IMG/VR virus record: IMGVR_UViG_3300019889_000017
Span: 1-60,897 of that record
DNA: 60,897 nt
Reading direction: 5' to 3' (one strand)
From: a virus
A model generated the notes under the pieces. It had not been told where the DNA came from and ran no database searches. It saw nothing but the letters and a program-made list of their open reading frames with translations. Every line of letters starts with the position of its first letter. Within the stretch, counting starts at the first letter, position 1. A program made the translations under genes and the position numbers. Positions 7,841-48,817 of the stretch are shown piece after piece.

Positions 7841-7947
7841 TGTTCGGTCTCCTTGATACGTAATTGTCAAAGTTTGGGGTGCCCGGACTCGGGACGTGTG
7901 CGTTCTGGATGTTGGGACGGCCCTGGTCCCGAGCCGGACGAGACGTT

Positions 7948-7977: not shown

Positions 7978-8033
7978 CCCAGGGCAGGGCGCTTCTGCAA
8001 TAGGTATCGAGCCGAGATTGGCCCCGCCCCGGG
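7978..8033 (-). ncRNA. TIGR-like hairpin 3' of the polymerase gene
   Basis: CCCAGGGCAGGGC (7978-7990) pairs with 8021-8033 around a 30-nt loop (gcttctgcaa, TAGGTATCG at 8001-8009, agccgagattg). Its two mismatches become G-U pairs on the minus strand. It starts 4 nt after the polymerase stop codon. It has the same design as the array units at 18.1-18.8 kb, with a different GC-rich stem. Confidence 0.75.
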
Positions 8034-12412: not shown

Positions 12413-13009
12413 TTACGCCTGCGACGTTGGCTCGGACGGCGAATCAGACCACGGAGCCGTCAGCTCCTGGATCCTTTGGATGTTGATCACCGAAGAAACG
12501 TCCGGAAGAGTGGCCCGGGTGACCAACAGGCGCGCCAGGCGGGCCACGTCGGTGAGCCGATGCTCCGCCGTATCAAGGCTGTGCCGCTGGTCAGCACTGG
12601 AGGCCCGCAACTGGTCCAACCTCTGGGCCAGATCCTTGCGGTCCATGTTGAACGCCTGGGCTTTGCTCTCCGACTTCAAGAACCTGTCTTTGAGCTTTTC
12701 CAGGCTGGCTTCAGCCACATTCAACTTCTCGGCTAGAAGATCATTGTTCTTAAAGAGCTCTTTGACCCTGTCCTCTGCTCGCTCGGCCCACTGCCGGTTG
12801 GAGCGCCTGCCGAGCTGCTCTTTATCGGCACGCTTGGTTTCCTCAGCCAGCTGGTCCTCCAGGACCACGACCCGATCCTTAAGGCCCACCTCGTCTGAGG
12901 TGGACAGCCGTTCGAGGACCTCGGTCGCCTCCTCTCGGTCGCCTGCCGTGATTTCGATGGTCACGTGCGAATCGTGAAACTCTTTCGCAGTCTTGATGCG
13001 GATCTCCAT
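12413..13009 (-). CDS. Coiled-coil protein
   Basis: This 198-residue protein is almost entirely charged heptad-like helix from about residue 45 to 165 (DRVVVLEDQLAEETKRADKE and on). The N terminus is a short beta segment (MEIRIKTAKEF), possibly a small ligand or partner-binding fold. It sits between helicase and polymerase with its own promoter (13040-13069), so a scaffold or accessory role in replication is possible. No family is recognised. Confidence 0.8.
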   Translation of the reverse strand: MEIRIKTAKEFHDSHVTIEITAGDREEATEVLERLSTSDEVGLKDRVVVLEDQLAEETKRADKEQLGRRSNRQWAERAEDRVKELFKNNDLLAEKLNVAEASLEKLKDRFLKSESKAQAFNMDRKDLAQRLDQLRASSADQRHSLDTAEHRLTDVARLARLLVTRATLPDVSSVINIQRIQELTAPWSDSPSEPTSQA

Positions 13010-13069: not shown

Positions 13070-13123
13070 CCGGGGCCGGGCGGCACTGGTTTGGGTATCG
13101 AAGCCCTTCTGGCCCAGCCCCGG
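13070..13123 (-). ncRNA. TIGR-like hairpin 3' of the SF2 helicase gene
   Basis: CCGGGGCCGGGC (13070-13081) pairs with GCCCAGCCCCGG (13112-13123). Its single mismatch is a G-U pair on the minus strand. The 30-nt loop is ggcactggtt, TGGGTATCG (13092-13100), aagcccttctg. It begins 5 nt after the helicase stop codon. Confidence 0.8.
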
Positions 13124-13128
13124 AAGCT

Positions 13129-14808
13129 CTATCGGACTGCCAGCTTCCTGACCGCCCGGCGCCCGCTGATCCGGGTGATCAGGTCGGCCGCCTCACCACG
13201 GGTGCGCACCTTGCCGAGCTTGGCCTCCGGCAGGCCCTCGCGCAGCAGGCGGCCGCGCTGCTGGTCACTGACCGGCTGGCGCAGCCAGCGCGCGTCACGT
13301 TCGACAAGCTTTTGAAACGCCTTGGCACGGTCCTCACCGATCCCCATCGCCCAGTCGGCCGGGAGCTGCTCGTGCAGGATCTCCAGCTTGGCGTTCCGGT
13401 ACGCAGCCAACCGCCAGGTGTCGACCCCCGCCGGGACCATGACGACGATCTCCTGACCGGCGCCGAGGCACCAGCCGTCCTCGACGGGTAACCAGCGCAA
13501 CCGTGAAGCGCCGAACACGTCGACCTTCCCGGCCTTGCCAGCATCGCAGTTGTCATGCCGGTGGCCGTTCTCCGAGACCACCCGGGCGGGGAGGTAGCGG
13601 CGGCACAGCGAACACCGGTGCCAGGTGACCTCACACGGCTCCCCGCACGTCGGGCACGCCTGAGCTTCGGCCTCTCCGTCGAGCTTCTTCTTGCGCTTGG
13701 TGTCAAACCCCTCGTCCCCGAGGTCGACCCTCGTGACGATGTCATGGCGCCGGGTGGCGCCGACGAAGTCAACGATCAGCAGGTCGGCCTTCCCCGGGGA
13801 CAGCCGGGTCCCGCGGCCCGCCATCTGGACGTACAGGCCGTGGCGCACGGTGGCCCGTGCGATGGCTACGCAGTCGATCGACGGCTCGTCAAAGCCCTCG
13901 ATGAAGACTCCGCAGTTGACCACGCACTGGGTCTCGCCGGTCTTCAGCCGCTTCTTGGTCGCCGTCCGGAGGTCGGTCTCGGTGTCGCTCTCCACCGCCT
14001 CAGCAGCCATGCCGCGCTTGACCAGGGCGGCCGCGAGAGCGTGTGCGGTCTTGACCGTCGGTGTGAAGGCGAGAATCTTGCGGTCACCGGCGTGCTCGAT
14101 CAGCCCGTCCGCGATCTCCTCGATGGCGCCGGAGTCCTCCATCTCACGGCCGAGGTCGCCACCGGAGAGGTCGCCGTCGCCACCCTTGCGCACCCGGGTG
14201 AGGTCCATCTTGGTCTCGACCACCACCGCCGGGAGGATCGGCACCAGGTAGCCGCCGAAGATGGCCTCCCGAATTGACATGTAAGAGACAACTTTCTCCC
14301 ACACGCCGAGCGTCTTCCCCTCCCGCTCCGGAGTGGCGGTGAAGCCGACCGCCAGAGGGCCGTGCGGGTGGAATGCGCCGAGCCCCTTCAGGAACTTCGT
14401 CCAGCTCGGCGATGGTGCGTGGTGGGCTTCGTCCACGATGATCGTCCCGAACGGCCGGCGCCCGGCCGACTCGACCAGCCGCCGGAGCCGTTCGTCGCGG
14501 TGCGCGGTAGGGATGGAGGCCACCACGCAGTCCGCGTCCACCTCGTCCCGCTCCGCCTTGACGATGCCGGTCGAGAGGTGTGGCGCCTGCCAGTCCAGTT
14601 TCTCGATGAACTGGTCGGCCAGCTCTTCGCGGTGCACACCGACGATCGTCCGGCCGCGGTCGGCGCGCCGGGTGGCGGCCGCGCCCATCACCACGCCCTT
14701 TCCGGTGCCGGTCGGGTGGACCACCAGGGGGCGGCGAACACCCTCGCGCTCGGCCGTCTCGATGGCGTCCAGAGCCTTGACCTGGTAGTCGCGGAGCTGG
14801 ATGTCCAT
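13129..14808 (-). CDS. SF2 (DEAH-box) helicase
   Basis: This 559-residue protein has helicase motif I HPTGTGKG (31-38), motif II DEAH (126-129), motif III GFTATPERE (155-163) and motif VI QMAGRGTR (328-335), in the order of XPB/RecG-type SF2 enzymes. A zinc-binding cluster follows (CPTCGEPC, then CSLC, 385-402). The C-terminal 150 residues are basic with little similarity I can name. Probably used in replication or recombination, downstream of an OB-fold-like protein in the same transcript. Confidence 0.9.
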   Translation of the reverse strand: MDIQLRDYQVKALDAIETAEREGVRRPLVVHPTGTGKGVVMGAAATRRADRGRTIVGVHREELADQFIEKLDWQAPHLSTGIVKAERDEVDADCVVASIPTAHRDERLRRLVESAGRRPFGTIIVDEAHHAPSPSWTKFLKGLGAFHPHGPLAVGFTATPEREGKTLGVWEKVVSYMSIREAIFGGYLVPILPAVVVETKMDLTRVRKGGDGDLSGGDLGREMEDSGAIEEIADGLIEHAGDRKILAFTPTVKTAHALAAALVKRGMAAEAVESDTETDLRTATKKRLKTGETQCVVNCGVFIEGFDEPSIDCVAIARATVRHGLYVQMAGRGTRLSPGKADLLIVDFVGATRRHDIVTRVDLGDEGFDTKRKKKLDGEAEAQACPTCGEPCEVTWHRCSLCRRYLPARVVSENGHRHDNCDAGKAGKVDVFGASRLRWLPVEDGWCLGAGQEIVVMVPAGVDTWRLAAYRNAKLEILHEQLPADWAMGIGEDRAKAFQKLVERDARWLRQPVSDQQRGRLLREGLPEAKLGKVRTRGEAADLITRISGRRAVRKLAVR

Positions 14809-15734: not shown

Positions 15735-15807
15735 GCCTTCTATGTTAGCAGTGAGAACCCCGGACCGGGCGCGAAGATGATGGGTGACATTCCTCGGTCC
15801 TGGCGAG

Positions 15808-15837
15808 TTGACACTTCACAGTCAAGCCTGTTAAGCT
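15808..15837 (+). promoter_or_regulatory. TTGACA promoter with complete operator
   Basis: TTGACA (15808-15813) and TTAAGC or TAAGCT (from 15831). The sequence TTGACACTTCACAGTCAA is a perfect TTGAC-N8-GTCAA palindrome over the -35 box. Seven bases separate TTAAGC from ATG 15844. Confidence 0.8.
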
Positions 15838-16055: not shown

Positions 16056-16060
16056 AGCGG

Positions 16061-16089
16061 TTGACACTTCACAGTCAAGCCTGTAACGT
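16061..16089 (+). promoter_or_regulatory. TTGACA-N17-TAACGT promoter with operator
   Basis: TTGACA (16061-16066) and TAACGT (16084-16089), with the full TTGAC-N8-GTCAA palindrome. The transcript has a 40-nt leader with GAGGAGG before ATG 16129. Confidence 0.9.
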
Positions 16090-16363: not shown

Positions 16364-16393
16364 GGCCCCCGCCCCGGAAGGGGGGAGGGGGCC
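16364..16393. terminator. GC-rich hairpin
   Basis: GGCCCCCGCCCC pairs imperfectly with GGGGGAGGGGGCC around GGAA. It follows the plus-strand gene and abuts the first hairpin of the 16.4-kb cluster. Confidence 0.5.
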
Positions 16394-16394
16394 G

Positions 16395-16644
16395 CCACGG
16401 TGTTCACTTGCTGGGTACCAGAGAAGGTGTTGACCGTGGAGTGTGGCCCCCGAGCTGGGTGGGCCGCCATTGGGTAGCGAGACGAATATGACCCAGCTCG
16501 GGGAGTCTATGAAGTTGAGCCTCCGGTCCGCGGTGGTTCGTGTATGGGTACCGAAGCGACCTTGACCGCGACCCGGAGGGGTGTGAGCCCCGAGCTGGGT
16601 GTGCGGCAAATGGGTATCGAGCGATCGATGACCCCAGCTCGGGG
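16395..16644 (-). ncRNA. Cluster of four TIGR-like hairpins 3' of the Tas-like gene
   Basis: Four hairpins carry the motif at 16412 (TGGGTACCA), 16471 (TGGGTAGCG), 16545 (TGGGTACCG) and 16611 (TGGGTATCG). Stems are CCACGGT (16395-16401/16433-16439), CCCCGAGCTGGGT (16448-16460/16491-16503), a 15-bp imperfect stem (16520-16534/16565-16579), and again CCCCGAGCTGGGT (16588-16600/16631-16644). Loops are 30 nt (31 in the first). Flanks such as gggccgccat/agacgaatatg and gtgcggcaaa/agcgatcgatg are all different. Hairpins 2 and 4 share stems. The last begins 6 nt after the stop codon of the Tas-like gene. Confidence 0.8.
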
Positions 16645-16650
16645 AGTCTC

Positions 16651-17490
16651 CTAGTCGTTCGCAGCGTGCCAGTCCCGGGCCGCGATCCAGAGATCCTTCA
16701 GCACGGTCTTGCTGACGATCCTCAGCGCGTCGGCGTGCTGGTGGCCCGGCCGCCACGGGGCGGTGATCAGCTCCGTCTTACCGGCGCCGTTGCACTGCGG
16801 GCACGGCCGGTCGTGGACCTTCTCCGCGGTCACCGCCCGGCGCTTGTCGTAGACCTCGCGGTACGGGGAGCGAGCCTGCTTGACGCAACTCTCCGAGATC
16901 AGGTAGGCGCGCGTCTTGGCGTCCGTCGACCAGTTCGACTTCTGGCCCTTCCTGCGCCGGGCGGCACCCCGAATGCTGGCATTCTGGGTGTCGAGCTCTA
17001 TTTGACCCGAGATGCCGCCCGGCTGTTCATCCCCGCCGATGCTCCGACCTTGAGCACCGCTAGGTGTATGAACGACGGGGATCGTGTGCAGGCCACTGTA
17101 GGCCCAGAGTTCACTGACGGTGCGCGGCCGGTCGTGGAGGATGTTCCAGTACGGGTCGCCGATGGTGGCCAGTAGGCGCGCCAGCTGCTTCTCCCCGATC
17201 CCGATCTGTTCCTTCTGCCACGGCCCCAGCGGGTGCTTCCGCATCGCTCGCTGAAGGCCGAGGATGACGGCGTGCTCCAGTTTGGCGAGGTTCTCCCCGG
17301 CAACGCGGATGGCCGCGACGTCGGGGTCGTCCGGCGACAGGCCCATCCCCCGCATCTCGTCGTCCGAGTCGACTTCGGACCGGGTGGCCTGCCGGAACCG
17401 GTTGTCCGTGGCCTTGCGTAGCTCCTCCAGACCGTCGAGCTGGGCGGCCAGCAGGAAGATCGCGGTGTTGCCGCGCAACATCTCACTCAT
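16651..17490 (-). CDS. Tas-like (IS110 C-terminal/Nop-type) protein, nuclease-less
   Basis: This 279-residue protein resembles the C-terminal domain of IS110-family transposases: the helix-hairpin block IGIGEKQLARLLATIGDP (96-113) with SELWAYSGL (126-134), then RRRKGQKSNWS and KTRAYLISESCVKQ (178-205) with SPYREVYDKRR (208-218). The N-terminal RuvC-like DEDD domain of a transposase is absent; residues 1-95 are helical. A CPQC pair (230-233) and HQH (250-252) near the end may bind zinc. No HNH or RuvC motif is visible. Hairpin arrays on both sides fit a guide-RNA-binding TasA-type protein. ATG 17490 overlaps the upstream gene by 8 bp. Confidence 0.75.
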   Translation of the reverse strand: MSEMLRGNTAIFLLAAQLDGLEELRKATDNRFRQATRSEVDSDDEMRGMGLSPDDPDVAAIRVAGENLAKLEHAVILGLQRAMRKHPLGPWQKEQIGIGEKQLARLLATIGDPYWNILHDRPRTVSELWAYSGLHTIPVVHTPSGAQGRSIGGDEQPGGISGQIELDTQNASIRGAARRRKGQKSNWSTDAKTRAYLISESCVKQARSPYREVYDKRRAVTAEKVHDRPCPQCNGAGKTELITAPWRPGHQHADALRIVSKTVLKDLWIAARDWHAAND

Positions 17491-18055
17491 CGCACAGCAC
17501 CTCTTCGACCTGCTCATCGGAGAGGTCGGCGACGACCTCGACGTGGTGTTGCTGCATCACCTTGACCAGCTTGCGGTACTTGCGCGCCGTGGTGGCGTTG
17601 GCCTCGGACTGCCGGTCCGACTCGGCCGCGGCGAACTCCAGGTCCGCAATCGTGCACCGCTCGATGTCACGGTACGTCTTGTTGCCCAGCCAGAGGGACA
17701 GCCGGACGCGGTGCTTCCGGAACAACGCGACGCGGGAGTTCCGGACGTTGCCGCCACCGGGGAGGACGCCGGCTGATTGGGCAGCGATGCGGGTTTGGTC
17801 CTCCCCGGTGACGGTGCTTTGACCCGGCTCGATGGTGTCCCTCTGGGTATCGGCTGCCAGTTGATCGGGCCGGGAGTCCTTGCGCGGGACGGTGGCCAGT
17901 TCCCGGCGGACCGTCTCGGTCAGCGCCTGGCGGTAGGCCTCGCTCGTTGCGGCCTTGGGCGTGCGTTCGAAGATCAGGTTGGCCAGGGTGTCCAGGTTCT
18001 CCTCGGTGGTGTCCGTGAGGATCGCCCGGATGTGCTGGCGGAGGTCGAATTTCAT
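17483..18055 (-). CDS. Conserved hypothetical protein between the array and the Tas-like gene
   Basis: A 190-residue protein starts at ATG 18055. The frame stays open upstream through the hairpin array, but the ATG after GGAGAGGAACC is preferred because the upstream part is repeat RNA. It has an N-terminal helical domain (LTDTTEENLDTLANLIFERTPK), a variable linker (100-135) and a basic C-terminal helix bundle (TARKYRKLVKVMQQ). Translation is coupled to the Tas-like gene, so it may be a partner, though it could equally be an ordinary replication-module gene. Confidence 0.7.
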   Translation of the reverse strand: MKFDLRQHIRAILTDTTEENLDTLANLIFERTPKAATSEAYRQALTETVRRELATVPRKDSRPDQLAADTQRDTIEPGQSTVTGEDQTRIAAQSAGVLPGGGNVRNSRVALFRKHRVRLSLWLGNKTYRDIERCTIADLEFAAAESDRQSEANATTARKYRKLVKVMQQHHVEVVADLSDEQVEEVLCDE

Positions 18056-18087
18056 GGGTGTTCGGTTCCTCTCCGTTGGTCCATGGG

Positions 18088-18783
18088 CCGGTACGAATGG
18101 CGACGCTATGGGTATCGTATGGGCTGTGATTCGTACCGGGTCAAGAACAGACGGTGCGCTGCATTTGGGTATCGGCGGTGTATTGACCGTCTGCTCATGA
18201 CCCGGTACGAATGTAGAGTGGTTGGGTATCGGTGGGACTTTGATTCGTACCGGTTCAAGAACAGACGGTGTGCCGAGCTTGGGTATCAGCGAACCTGTGA
18301 CCATCTGCTCATGATCCGGTACGAATGTAGGAAACATGGGTATCGGACCCGCTTTGATTCGTACCGGTTCAAGAACAGACGGTGGGACGACTTTGGATAT
18401 CGGGAGGACTATGACCGTCTGCTCATGACCCGGTACGAATGGTGTCCCCATGGGTATCGGATCCGCTTTGATTCGTACCGGTTCAAGAACAGACGGTGCT
18501 TTGCCTTTGGGTATCGGAGAACCTTTAAACCGTCTGCTCATGACCTGGTACGAATGCGGGGAGCTTGGGTATCGAATCTTCACTGATTCGTACCGGCTCA
18601 TGAGCAGACGGTGCGTTCCTTATGGTTGACGGTGTCACCTTGACCGTCTGCTCATTGACCGATGTGAATGATTGATCCGTGGGTATCGCCGATACAATGA
18701 TTCACACCAGTGAATGAACAGACGGGGTTCCCCGGGGCGGTGATCGAACTCTGGATATCGCCACCATCTTGACCGCCCCGGGG
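18088..18783 (-). repeat. TIGR-like array: 12 tandem hairpins with variable 30-nt loops
   Basis: The loop motif (TGGGTATCG or one to three changes) occurs at 18109, 18166, 18223, 18280, 18337, 18394, 18451, 18508, 18566, 18623, 18680 and 18752, a 57-bp period up to the irregular last unit. Between loops lie 27-nt edges that alternate between ATTCGTACC...CAGACGGT and its near reverse complement ACCGTCTG...GGTACGAAT. Variable flanks (plus strand) include ggcgacgcta/tatgggctgtg, gcgctgcatt/gcggtgtattg, gtagagtggt/gtgggactttg, gtgccgagct/gcgaacctgtg, gtaggaaaca/gacccgctttg, gggacgactt/ggaggactatg, ggtgtcccca/gatccgctttg and gcggggagct/aatcttcactg. The right flank usually ends in TG. Stem mismatches are mostly G-U on the minus strand. 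It begins 7 nt after the stop of gene 18791. Confidence 0.9.
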
Positions 18784-18790
18784 AGGTCGA

Positions 18791-19243
18791 CTACTTCTCG
18801 ACGTGCCTGACAGCGACCCCGAAATGCCTGTATGGCTTCCCGGCGTACGGGCCGGTACGGGCGATCTTCTCGCCGAAGAACTTGACCGCCATACGGTCGC
18901 CGAGCTCGGCGTCCGCGTCCAGCAGCTCCCGCTTCAGCACGGAGCTGTAGCCGATGACACGGTACTTCGTGCCGTCCTTGGTCTGGATCGTGACCGTGGG
19001 AACCATCGGGTTGTCGCCGGGCTTGGCGTAGTCCGACCGGGTCTCGCCCACCTTGATCACCAGGCCGGAGATACCCTCGCCGTGCTCGGTGGGGACCCAG
19101 CCTTCGGAGTCGTCCTCCTCAACCGAGTCCAGCAGGTCATCGAAGTCATCCTCCGAGACTTCCTTGGCGGTGTCCGTCAGGCTTTCGAACAGCTCGTCCG
19201 CCTCGTCCTTGGCGGGGGGAGTCTTACTGGTGCTTCCGGCCAC
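18791..19243 (-). CDS. OB-fold-like protein with acidic N terminus
   Basis: A 150-residue protein has a very acidic N-terminal 50 residues (DDFDDLLDSVEEDDSEGW) and a beta-rich domain (ISGLVIKVGETRSDY, VPTVTIQTKDG, YRVIGYSSVLKREL, MAVKFFGE). Domain order and the GY/AY...L block match the protein at 14808-15200. I infer a single-strand-binding or clamp-like accessory protein. It starts behind GAAGGAGGG and is preceded by a hairpin leader (19286-19333). Confidence 0.7.
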   Translation of the reverse strand: MAGSTSKTPPAKDEADELFESLTDTAKEVSEDDFDDLLDSVEEDDSEGWVPTEHGEGISGLVIKVGETRSDYAKPGDNPMVPTVTIQTKDGTKYRVIGYSSVLKRELLDADAELGDRMAVKFFGEKIARTGPYAGKPYRHFGVAVRHVEK

Positions 19244-19285
19244 GAGGGCCCTCCTTCAGTGAGCTGGCTAGTTAGTTGTCCCGAT

Positions 19286-19333
19286 CCGGCTGGACGGCTT
19301 CCTCAATACGCGTAGGCAGTGCCGTCCAGCCGG
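19286..19333. other. 13-bp hairpin in the leader of gene 18791-19243
   Basis: CCGGCTGGACGGC (19286-19298) pairs perfectly with 19321-19333 around a 22-nt loop that contains CGCGTA. The loop lacks the TGGGTATCG motif. It may be an attenuator or RNA-stability element. Confidence 0.6.
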
Positions 19334-19419
19334 ACCAGTTCGGGTCTCTTAACGCCACCCGCGTAGCGCGTCCGCCTTGAGTTGATCAGACCGGTCTTGG
19401 GCGAACCTCGGACCGCTCG

Positions 19420-25103: not shown

Positions 25104-25403
25104 TCAGGCTGCAGCGGACACCAGGTCCGTGCGCGCGCCCTGGCCTGGGCGGCCGGCCTTCCACTCGTCCAGGCTGGCCCGGGTGAAAACGGGCAGGTTG
25201 TACTGACCCTCTGCCTTCCGGTCGGGGTTGGCCTCCGGCCCGATGCCGCGCGCGACGTAGCTGGAGAGGGTGTTCCGCTTCAGGCCCAGGTACTCGGCCG
25301 CCGGACCGTACCCGACGAATTCATCGGGAAGGTCAGACAAGATCTCCGTGGATCTCGCACCCATGATGGTCTGGCCTCCCTGATCAACTCGCAGTCCAGT
25401 CAC
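25104..25403 (-). CDS. Helix-turn-helix protein (excisionase/MerR-like)
   Basis: The block GYGPAAEYLGLKRNTLSSYVARGIGPEA is a typical HTH_17/AlpA-like DNA-binding motif, followed by FTRASLDEWKAGRPG, the usual end of such domains. GTG 25403 lies 7 nt after a -10 box and would give 99 residues from a leaderless mRNA. ATG 25364 after GGGAGG would give 86 and is also possible. A transcriptional regulator; whether it reads the phage operators is unknown. Confidence 0.78.
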   Translation of the reverse strand: MTGLRVDQGGQTIMGARSTEILSDLPDEFVGYGPAAEYLGLKRNTLSSYVARGIGPEANPDRKAEGQYNLPVFTRASLDEWKAGRPGQGARTDLVSAAA

Positions 25404-25790: not shown

Positions 25791-26056
25791 GCCTCAGCCC
25801 CCGAGGGAGCGCTGGACGACCCAGGCGAGGAGGAGGACCGCGGCCCCAGCGGCTCCGACGGCTCCGACGGCAGACTGACCCGCGTACCGGGCCCGGAGAG
25901 CCAGAGCCTGAGAAAACCAGGGCCGAGCATCGTCGCCGCGCTGATCAGCATCAACGGCCACGGCCCGGCGGTCAGGACCGTCCACGTTCCCCACGCGCCT
26001 CCGAGGACCAGGAAAAAGAGATCCCGTTGGAGGGGCGGCAGTGCTCGCCTGCTCAC
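25787..26056 (-). CDS. Small membrane protein
   Basis: An 89-residue protein starts at GTG 26056, overlapping the upstream stop. Two hydrophobic segments (LFFLVLGGAWGTWTVL and PWPLMLISAATMLG) precede a Ser/Pro-rich tail. It is in the same transcript as the glycosyltransferases, so it might anchor or assist envelope or virion modification. Function unknown. Confidence 0.65.
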   Translation of the reverse strand: MSRRALPPLQRDLFFLVLGGAWGTWTVLTAGPWPLMLISAATMLGPGFLRLWLSGPGTRVSLPSEPSEPLGPRSSSSPGSSSAPSGAEA

Positions 26057-26799
26057 TCACTTTTCCCTGCCTTCCCGGTCCGCCGAGCTGTTGTCGCCGA
26101 GCGTACGCGAGAGGGGCCTGAGCGCGTCCCGGTGCGGCGCAGCAGCATGGGATCGGTCACCACCGGCCCGGACCACGACAAATCCAGCGCCGAGCCGTAG
26201 TGCCACTTGCGCGCCACCCGGTCAGCTGCCCGGTGTTTCGTCAGGCTGGGGATGGACAGGTGGTCCACCAGTGACGGCCAGGTGTACCAGACCTCACGAT
26301 CGTTGCGCTTCGCCCAGCCGCCCACCCGCATGTCGTCCGGGACCCCGCCGCGCCGGGAGGACCACTCGATCATCGCCGGTATGTCGGCTGTCGGAACCGC
26401 CAGGCTCACGCCCCACATCACGCGCTCGCCGCGGACCCAGGATGCGTGCACGGCGTCGGCACGCACCGTCAACACGTCCCAGCGGGCCGGAGCCATCCGC
26501 CCGGTGCCGAGGTAGGGCGAGACCACCGCCCCGTCAGGGACGAACTCCAGGGCCTTCTCCAGCCCCGCGAGGTAGTCGCCGCACGGAACCGCGTCGTCCT
26601 GGATCAACACGTGGTAGTCGGCCGCCGGGTCGAACAGTGACCAGGCCTCGCGCGCCACGTTCCACACGCGCTCGGCGTTGCCGGACGGCGGGCCGTTGTC
26701 GTCCCAGTAGATCTCCACCGGGCGGTCCAGCGCATCGCGAAGTTCTTTCACGTACCTCGCCCGGTCCGGGTGGGCCATGATGCTGGCGCTGACCCTCAC
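26053..26799 (-). CDS. Glycosyltransferase-like protein
   Basis: A 248-residue protein with a GT-A-like layout: VSASIMAHPDRARYVKEL at the N terminus, VEIYWDDNG, YHVLIQDDAVPC (an acidic motif in the DxD position) and WGVSLAVPTADIP. This resembles family-25-type glycosyltransferases. It probably modifies virion proteins, host glycans or DNA together with the next two genes. The stop of the upstream gene overlaps its GTG start. Confidence 0.7.
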   Translation of the reverse strand: MRVSASIMAHPDRARYVKELRDALDRPVEIYWDDNGPPSGNAERVWNVAREAWSLFDPAADYHVLIQDDAVPCGDYLAGLEKALEFVPDGAVVSPYLGTGRMAPARWDVLTVRADAVHASWVRGERVMWGVSLAVPTADIPAMIEWSSRRGGVPDDMRVGGWAKRNDREVWYTWPSLVDHLSIPSLTKHRAADRVARKWHYGSALDLSWSGPVVTDPMLLRRTGTRSGPSRVRSATTARRTGKAGKSE

Positions 26800-28598
26800 T
26801 CGCCGTCCCGCAATGCCTGCAGCATCGACTCCCGCAGATCCTTGCGGGGGCCGAGCCGGATCCCGCGGGCGCGCGCGAGCGCGCGGAGCTGGCCTGTGTT
26901 CAGGTCCTCGGTCGACGTTCCCGGCCTCACGCTCCCCAGTTCGCCCTCATGCACGATGAACCAGAGCGGCGGCGCCTCGGCCACCGGCATCGGCTCAGCC
27001 AGGTTAGGTTGCGGCTCCGGACCAGGCTCCTCCCCAGTGGCCCAGCCGGGAGAAGGCGAGACGCCCTCGCTCGTGATGGCGGTGACCGCGTGCAGCCCCT
27101 CGGACCCGGCCGCCCGGAGATTGGCGTCCACTATGGCGGCCGACTCCTCCGGAGTCTCCTGACGAATGGCCAGCTGAGTCACGGCGAGGTGGTCGTGGAA
27201 GATCTTGATCGGTTCCAGAAAGCCCTCCGCCACCATCTCGTCCACCGCCTCAGCCACGCCGGGCCAGTCGGGGTGGCCGTAGTCGTCCAGCGCGATCACG
27301 GCGTTGGGCGCGAGGTGCGGCGCCCACAGCTCGACGTCGGCCAGAGCGCCCTCCTTGCTGTGGTCGCCGTCGATGAAGATCAAACCCACCTGCCGGTTGC
27401 CGTAGCCGACCAGATCCGGGGAGGTGACCCAGTCCCGGGCCACGTTGGCGCTGAAGTCGTGGACCAGCGTGATCGAGCTGTTGTAGCCGAGCGCCATCAC
27501 GTTGTACTCGGCCCAGCGCCGCGAGCCCTCCTCGTTGAACGGCGGGGCATAGGTGTTGCCCGCCTTCTCCCACAGGTCGACACCCCACAGGTGCGCTCCG
27601 TTCCCCTGGCGCGCTCCCCAGGCCATCAGCAGCGCGGTCCGGCCCTGGAACACGCCGATCTCCACGATCGCCTGATCCGAGGGCACCTGGGCGGCGAAGT
27701 CGGCCAGCGCGACCCCGATCTCATCCGGGGTAGCGCCGCGGACCTTCTTGAAGTGCCGGGGGATCGAAAGCCTCGTCATACGGTTGCCTCTCGGTCTCGG
27801 AGTCACCGACCGCGGCATGGTGCCGGGCCGAAGTCTGGACTGGACCGACTTCTCAGGCCGGACGTCCGGCCTGAGAAGTCGGTCCAGTCCAGACTTCGGC
27901 CCGGCGGTCAGCATCGTGTGGCCGCGCCAGTCCTCATACCGAAGCTTGTCCCGCTTGAACTGGTCCCGGTGGTTGACCCGCTGGTACTGGGCGTCGCTCT
28001 CGGCCTTCCCCGCGATCGGGTGCATGTGCTCGATCCGCACCTCGGGGAGGTGGCGCAACGCCCCGGCTCCGCCGAACAGGTCCATCATCGCGTTGTCGCA
28101 GTACATGTGCTCCACCGGTGCCGGGACCATCCGGCCGAGCGCGCGGACCGCGTCAGCGGTCACCGCCCATTCGGTGCTGAGGTTCTGGCCCTGGTAGCCG
28201 TCGTCCCCGTAGACCATGCCGGTGCCCAGCTCGTGCAGGACGGCGAGGTAGCGCTCAGCCCAGCCGATCGTCTGGGGGAGGTGATCGTCGCCGGCGAATC
28301 CGAGGGCGAAGTATGAACTGTCCACGATCAACTGGCTGACCGTCCGCTCCAGCTTGTGCACCATCGGCATCCACTCGGTAAACGTGATCATCTTGAGCGG
28401 GCTGGGCGTGTCATCCGGCGTGTCGTCCAGGAACTCATCCAGGACCGCGCCGTATTCGTAGTACCTCGGGTCGTCGGCATCCACGGCCAGCACAAGGTCC
28501 GCGACGTCCCAGGCGTTGGTGAAGTCCCAGGCGGCGATCAGGCGCCGGATGTTCCCCGGGCGGCCGCGGGTGGGGACGAGAACAGCCAGCTCAGGCAC
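26796..28598 (-). CDS. Glycosyltransferase-methyltransferase fusion
   Basis: A 600-residue protein. Residues 1-230 are a GT-A-type glycosyltransferase (LAVLVPTRGRPGNIRRL; VLAVDADDP). Residues about 275-440 are a class I SAM-dependent methyltransferase (IVEIGVFQGRTALLMAWG as motif I; GLIFIDGDHSKEGALAD), of the cephalosporin-hydroxylase/macrocin-O-methyltransferase type. The C-terminal 120 residues are acidic and low complexity, ending in a SAP-like LRALARARGIRLG. An 84-bp perfect palindrome encodes residues 232-259, between the enzyme domains. An internal ATG (27780) with AGAGG before it could start a separate methyltransferase. Confidence 0.8.
   Translation of the reverse strand: MPELAVLVPTRGRPGNIRRLIAAWDFTNAWDVADLVLAVDADDPRYYEYGAVLDEFLDDTPDDTPSPLKMITFTEWMPMVHKLERTVSQLIVDSSYFALGFAGDDHLPQTIGWAERYLAVLHELGTGMVYGDDGYQGQNLSTEWAVTADAVRALGRMVPAPVEHMYCDNAMMDLFGGAGALRHLPEVRIEHMHPIAGKAESDAQYQRVNHRDQFKRDKLRYEDWRGHTMLTAGPKSGLDRLLRPDVRPEKSVQSRLRPGTMPRSVTPRPRGNRMTRLSIPRHFKKVRGATPDEIGVALADFAAQVPSDQAIVEIGVFQGRTALLMAWGARQGNGAHLWGVDLWEKAGNTYAPPFNEEGSRRWAEYNVMALGYNSSITLVHDFSANVARDWVTSPDLVGYGNRQVGLIFIDGDHSKEGALADVELWAPHLAPNAVIALDDYGHPDWPGVAEAVDEMVAEGFLEPIKIFHDHLAVTQLAIRQETPEESAAIVDANLRAAGSEGLHAVTAITSEGVSPSPGWATGEEPGPEPQPNLAEPMPVAEAPPLWFIVHEGELGSVRPGTSTEDLNTGQLRALARARGIRLGPRKDLRESMLQALRDGE
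27822..27905. repeat. 84-bp perfect inverted repeat without loop
   Basis: Positions 27822-27863 are the exact reverse complement of 27864-27905, centred on GGACGTCC. It lies in frame at the junction of the two enzyme domains of gene 26796-28598. It could be a cruciform-forming element, a recent inverted duplication or an assembly or amplification artefact. Confidence 0.95.
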
Positions 28599-48760: not shown

Positions 48761-48817
48761 CCCCGGGCCAGGAGCTGTGTACTTGGGTAACGGCCTTGTT
48801 CTGGCTCAAGCCCGGGG
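48761..48817 (-). ncRNA. Degenerate TIGR-like hairpin 3' of the major capsid gene
   Basis: CCCCGGGC...GAGC (48761-48775) pairs with GCTC...GCCCGGGG (48804-48817). The loop of about 28 nt contains TGGGTAACG (48784-48792) followed by gccttgttctg, 11 nt ending in TG, as in the other hairpins. It lies 15 nt after the capsid stop codon. It is the only member I found in the late region. Confidence 0.6.

Follow-up and report, generated by a model that had tools for sequence, protein, structure and literature searches.

What are the tandem hairpins that flank the gene of a small protein in one phage genome, and what might their variable parts recognise? The genome is IMG/VR virus record IMGVR_UViG_3300019889_000017, of which the whole stretch of 60,897 nucleotides (nt) was analysed (hereafter the window). 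A sequence-only reading had proposed a TIGR-TasA-type system, and this proposal is supported by the edge-spacer-loop-spacer-edge layout of the hairpins, by their CCA box-C ends and by Tas matches in profile and fold. We consider the identity as TIGR-TasA to be close to certain, and guide-directed DNA binding, by analogy with solved relatives, to be very probable. Overall, a stem-loop-array TIGR-TasA RNA-guided DNA-binding system of an actinobacterial phage is the best explanation and a probable one; inter-phage competition as its purpose is an even call.

The hairpin array is far beyond chance, because hairpins with a 30-nt loop number 14 on one strand and one on the other, against 0-3 at each of all other loop lengths from 16 to 44 (counting those that have the G/TG flanks and at least 10 arm bases paired). 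A scan for the unit grammar gave 15 matches on the plus strand, whereas shuffled sequence gave 0.6 on average, counting both strands. Rfam matched nothing in the window. Altogether the window holds 25 guide units, comprising twelve in a main array, four in a second array, two within tas, two within its neighbour P2 and five scattered (Table 1). The sequence-only reading had located both arrays and counted 16 units, missing those nested in the two genes and the dispersed ones. The period of 57 base pairs (bp) that it gave holds for the first eleven units of the main array (57-58 bp), while the last lies 72 bp further on and has its own arms; the loop repeats of this array span 18109-18760. Read on the plus strand, a unit is arm-G-9 nt-TGGGTATCG-9 nt-TG-arm, and on the minus strand arm-(C/U)CA-spacer 1 (9 nt)-CGNNNNCCA-spacer 2 (9 nt)-C-arm, and both ends of the spacers bear box C/D-like motifs. 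The alternation of edges and reverse complements was confirmed, with 85-96% complementarity in the 27-nt edge pairs. The variable parts, earlier put at about 10 and about 11 nt, are exactly 9 and 9 nt.

About 37 loci share this grammar but differ in their spacers; they lie in IMG/VR contigs, Gordonia and Mycobacterium phages, and prophages of Parafrankia, Actinomadura and Mycobacterium. Every retrieved locus that was scanned contains at least one such unit and nearly all contain several, with locus-specific spacers. Among unique units, 177 of 200 are exactly 9-9-9 (spacer, loop, spacer), and in the loop CG....CCA (n = 224 units) G2 is conserved in 223, C7 in 220, C8 in 221 and A9 in 224. Edges end in (C/U)CA, paired by C-G or U-A with the opposite arm on the tas-sense strand; the first arm pair is C-G in 185 and U-A in 30 of the 224. 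Arms pair in nearly all units and in about half when arms are re-dealt, with 1900 Watson-Crick arm pairs against a maximum of 994 for re-dealt arms, in units pre-selected for at least 7 of 9 pairs.

The guide RNA is the tas-sense (minus) strand. On the TG strand, A-C arm mismatches outnumber G-T ones (67 to 26 in 195 distinct arm pairs, p = 2.5e-5, units within one locus not being fully independent), and therefore the wobbles belong to the tas-sense strand. Co-orientation with tas is seen in 269 of 270 units (a few loci are duplicates). Free-energy folding counts against this assignment, favouring the plus strand (lower energy) for the units tested, partly through base composition; the wobble statistics and co-orientation were given more weight. 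The plus strand, on which UG starts both repeats, was dropped as the RNA strand, since the arm mismatches there are A-C rather than G-U and the CCA box C fits the minus strand. The 9-nt loop motif of the sequence-only reading is constant, as claimed, but TGGGTATCG had been read on the strand opposite to the RNA. Faure et al. (2025; PMC12045711) assign UG to box D and CCA to box C, the two being joined by a Watson-Crick pair; the unit features agree with these boxes, with C replacing U in box D.

The protein between the arrays is TasA, because its profile and fold match TasR and TasH and a nuclease domain is absent. The tas open reading frame (ORF) has 288 codons from its first ATG and, as the sequence-only reading had it, 279 from the ATG at 17490, which sits at the stop of the upstream gene P2. 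The protein matches phrog_4285 (1.6e-88), and the TasA family profile matches TasR (9mty, 4.7e-22) and TasH (21kl, 2.6e-11) in the PDB. Its AlphaFold2 model, which opens with a coiled-coil helix (residues 3-36), has a predicted local distance difference test score of 85 and a predicted template modelling score (pTM) of 0.78. In Foldseek, TasR and TasH are its nearest relatives (E 3e-7 to 1e-5, template modelling (TM) score about 0.6; for TasR 3e-7, prob 1.00, TM 0.6), followed by IS621 (3e-4), with a weak match to archaeal Nop5, and so the anticipated likeness to Tas, IS110 and Nop proteins is found in both profile and structure. No Pfam nuclease, RuvC or HNH domain was matched in the 279 residues, which leave no space for RuvC or HNH, in keeping with the sequence-only reading. 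The N-terminal DEDD/RuvC-like catalytic half of IS110 proteins is absent, as judged from the model and fold comparison. An identity as IS110 transposase was rejected on account of that missing half and of the conserved operon position behind P2. PADLOC matched neither TasA nor P2.

TasA has a regular partner. In 37 of the 38 loci, three pairs of which are near-duplicates, a profile search places P2 upstream of tas and in the same orientation; in a few, e.g. L035 and L036, the interval exceeds 1 kb. In the phage collection, P2 of Mycobacterium phage CactusRose is found in 76 records, 75 from Mycobacterium (including an M. abscessus prophage record) and one from Gordonia phage LonelyBoi, and among the 40 matches listed the P2 carriers agree with the TasA carriers. 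Among 250 genomes from the order of one Mycobacterium (G003), P2 occurs in one, the sole genome with a convincing TasA, and was not found in the other 249. P2 is predicted to have a helical N-terminal and a small C-terminal domain joined by a disordered linker (model pTM 0.35). It matches phrog_4604 and no Pfam family, ParB included, and has no sequence or fold match in the PDB. A role as a ParB-like partner was considered and is not supported, the Pfam, PDB sequence and fold searches being negative, although with so low a pTM of the model a remote relation may exist. In this subtype, P2 probably serves as an additional structural component or as an effector adaptor.

Both genes contain guide units, and these fall in segments predicted to be disordered. 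The sole very-low-confidence stretch of the TasA model, residues 140-172, is predicted disordered and lies within the segment encoded by nested units; in P2 the predicted disordered linker covers residues 61-104, where the other nested pair lies. Over all loci there are 51 nested units in tas and 12 in P2. Among relatives, the TasA insertion is present where units lie in tas, and TasA proteins without the insertion have no units in tas. Of 24 loci with an array in the P2-tas interval, 17 keep the tas frame open throughout, as against 5 and 1 for the two remaining sense frames; the arrays between the genes may therefore be translated as a TasA leader in many phages. In the window, the P2 frame is open across most of the 12-unit array, helped by the array period of 57 bp being equal to 19 codons. 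Translation and guide processing may compete for such RNA.

Table 1. Genes and guide units of the TIGR-TasA locus in the window (for units, the strand is that of the RNA).
Feature	Position	Strand	Remarks
tasA	16651..17490	-	279 aa; solo Nop/IS110-type RNA-binding protein without nuclease domain; profile and fold matches
P2	17486..18055	-	190 aa; phrog_4604; directly upstream of tasA; end overlaps tas start region
Main guide array, 12 stem-loop units	18088..18783	-	57-bp period; edges alternate with reverse complement
Second guide array, 4 units	16391..16644	-	just 3' of tasA
Two guide units nested in tasA coding sequence	16964..17082	-	encode residues 136-176
Two guide units nested in P2	17757..17875	-	encode residues 60-100
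Solitary dispersed guide unit	7885..7937	-	
Solitary dispersed guide unit	7980..8032	-	intergenic
Solitary dispersed guide unit	13071..13123	-	intergenic, between ORFs 12413-13009 and 13129-14808
Solitary dispersed guide unit	25328..25380	-	T replaces C at box-D position
Solitary degenerate unit	48763..48815	-	intergenic; loop and spacing retained, inner arm pairs broken

A tblastn search of the phage collection found TasA in 84 records (76 Mycobacterium, 5 Gordonia and one each from Arthrobacter, Rhodococcus and Microcystis), and further tas loci were found in IMG/VR and in genomes of Parafrankia, Actinomadura, Mycobacterium and others. In CactusRose (L006, 40834-42720) and about 74 cluster-A phage records, TasA is annotated 'transposase', 'HTH DNA binding' or hypothetical. 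In another locus (L028, 6105-6399) an array has an exact 42-bp period, and its 12-nt edges alternate with their reverse complement, each edge being shared by two units; this array is intermediate between the stem-loop and dual-repeat types. In the window, the DNA at 18816-19392 is 75% identical to pas50 of Actinoplanes phage phiAsp2, in which no TasA match was found, and this likeness hints at a host in or near the Micromonosporaceae.

How the spacers change can be seen in the CactusRose array, which is carried at one fixed place by 74 records of M. smegmatis phages and whose five-unit interval was aligned in 13 of them. The coding flanks of these 13 cluster-A phages are 97-99% identical. Identity in the three slots measured falls from 93-100% for arms to 55-92% for loops and 35-44% for spacers. 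Slot by slot, spacer alleles are common to several phages in conflicting combinations, and in slot 2, which has a long, conserved loop, the two halves reassort separately. The simplest explanation is that spacers reassort by homologous recombination at the arms and the loop.

By analogy with the solved relatives, a TasA dimer would bind one processed unit through two pseudo-symmetric box C/D sites, its two spacers would pair with opposite strands of an adjacent DNA site of roughly 18 bp, and the target DNA would be opened and bent rather than cut. The P2-tasA operon and the guide units lie on one strand. The spacer pattern suggests that guide diversity is upheld by recombination at the conserved arms, and that the guides most likely target variable DNA of foreign origin, from competing phages or other mobile elements, whose transcription or replication they would block. 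Diversifying spacers in a conserved scaffold favour a changing foreign target over self-regulation.

The TasR rule, in which spacers pair with opposite strands and 3' overhangs result (PMC12045711), gives as the expected site spacer 1 followed by the reverse complement of spacer 2. The guide geometry of IS110 elements leads to the same expectation. Several searches weigh against guide-directed binding as set out above. All units compared with all tas loci, at gaps from -3 to +24 and in four geometries, gave nothing above re-paired controls; no spacer target above controls was found in the host genomes of four prophages, or in 98 genomes of the genus Mycobacterium searched with 20 cluster-A alleles; and exact 18-mers of 12 cluster-A and 8 window units in the predicted geometry had no match in 50,697 phage records. 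The reverse geometry gave no exact 18-mer target in the phage collection either, and three window units had 1-3 matches each in IMG/VR, about the estimated chance level. Match counts in nine mycobacteriophage or Gordonia phage genomes were not above controls. The best match in these genomes covers 16 of 18 bases of the HarryOW slot-1 guide pair and lies in gp17 of Mycobacterium phage TM4 (L068, 12210-12227), with both mismatches at the outermost bases, in a set not above control. As the paired-spacer search found no target above controls, the silencing of rival phages or host genes that the sequence-only reading envisaged is unproven. The true targets may be absent from sequenced DNA, pairing may be less strict than 18 exact bases, or the assumed geometry or gap may be wrong.

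The guides may instead regulate the phage's own or host genes, through RNA-guided repression or lysogeny control, rather than act on rival elements. A nuclease-less TasA would suit repression, and gene regulation is among the possible roles named in PMC12045711. However, spacers are fully replaced between cluster-A phages isolated on one host and nearly identical in their flanks, and such complete turnover argues against this role, because a conserved self or host gene would keep spacers constant; nor were self or host matches above control. We regard own or host regulation as unlikely.

More doubtful still is that TasA-guide complexes bend DNA so as to help the phage to integrate, recombine or maintain its genome. 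The bend that TasR imposes on its target is about 180 degrees, a role of this kind is proposed for TasA (PMC12045711), and the loci sit among phage DNA-metabolism genes. The downstream neighbour of CactusRose tas is annotated as a Cas4 exonuclease (RecB-like), which could likewise be taken to suit this explanation. Against it, no spacer matches were found in the own phage genome or in prophage hosts, and the scan of window proteins, which covered a subset of them, recognised no integrase.

It is very improbable that the hairpins are selfish palindromic elements, resembling repetitive extragenic palindromes or the in-frame Rickettsia palindromes, which an IS110-type transposase has spread. The units are palindromic, dispersed and in-frame at permissive loops within genes, and many mycobacteriophage records label the protein family 'transposase', but the boxes are invariant around 9-nt inserts that are hypervariable at fixed length, arms vary between units yet still pair, same-slot units retain their arms and alter only inside, and the protein lacks the IS110 catalytic half. 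That the strong, GC-rich stems at intergenic positions serve to terminate or attenuate transcription, and that the likeness to TasA is a coincidence of neighbourhood, has next to no probability given exact 30-nt loops with conserved interior boxes, units inside open genes and the steady association with tasA in the loci retrieved.

TIGR-TasA stem-loop arrays have already been described, from a Peromyscus gut contig (Faure et al., 2025; PMC12045711, section 9), and the array of the window belongs to that type and not to the dual-repeat type, in which a rho-independent terminator after the array is reportedly typical. Proposed membership of TIGR-TasA, a kind known since 2025, is based on sequence and fold features that were tested. 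A solo Nop protein is common to both; the window differs in its constant loop CGNNNNCCA, its spacers fixed at 9 nt, its P2 partner, units nested in tas and P2, and solitary dispersed units, and none of these differences was found in the sections of PMC12045711 drawn on. The dual-repeat TIGR-TasR and TasH systems (PDB 9mty, 21kl) share the Nop fold (TM about 0.6), the CCA box C, two spacers, and loop and edge repeats, but their proteins include a RuvC or HNH nuclease and their short edge repeats lack long pairing arms. Box D, which is UG in TasR, reads CG in the present units, or CA in the edges. The IS110/IS621 bridge-RNA transposases share the C-terminal RNA-binding half and a guide whose two short arms pair with opposite strands, whereas here there is no DEDD catalytic domain, there are many guides per locus and the place in a phage operon is fixed. 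TIGR-TasParB (PMC12045711, section 44) likewise has a second gene operonised with tasA and arrays upstream, between and downstream; tasParB is the sole tasA partner mentioned in the sections drawn on, and P2 differs in lacking a Pfam ParB match and in its fold, which is predicted to be small and helical and matched no relatives in the PDB. Among the papers covered by text searches, no other one treated actinophage TIGR arrays.

Other features of the window may be mentioned. Identical 25-bp copies of GTTGACACTTCACAGTCAAGCCTGT at 15807-15831 and 16060-16084 each lie just upstream of a short plus-strand ORF that neighbours the array, and look like duplicated promoters opposed to the main gene direction. 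At 26053-28598 a glucosyltransferase-like gene (phrog_854, 1.3e-47) adjoins a DNA-methyltransferase-like gene (phrog_2675, 2.1e-188), which suggests modified phage DNA. A perfect palindrome, CTGGACTGGACCGACTTCTCAGGCCGGACGTCCGGCCTGAGAAGTCGGTCCAGTCCAG, with arms pairing over at least 25 bases, lies at about 27833-27895 within the predicted DNA methyltransferase gene, and is possibly a hairpin or an assembly artefact.

What is new is the P2 partner, the dual-coding nested units, the solitary units and an allelic series in culturable phages. We tentatively propose, with confidence a little short of even, a distinct two-protein actinophage subtype of TIGR (P2 and TasA), in which the guide units are dual-coding, lying in frame in disordered segments of both proteins and in a translatable tas leader. 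One mRNA would be either translated or cut into guides, possibly limiting its own expression, and swapping of spacer cassettes at conserved arms, not an adaptation machine, would renew the repertoire. PMC12045711 leaves open what TasA does, what the source of spacers is and by what means arrays lacking adaptation genes change, and recombination at arms and loop is our proposed answer to the last of these. The gene commonly annotated 'transposase' in these mycobacteriophages is TasA. With a fixed array place, near-identical flanks and differing spacers, the 74 phage records of M. smegmatis, a laboratory strain, form a natural allelic series, which lets TasA function, P2 function and guide exchange be tested directly.
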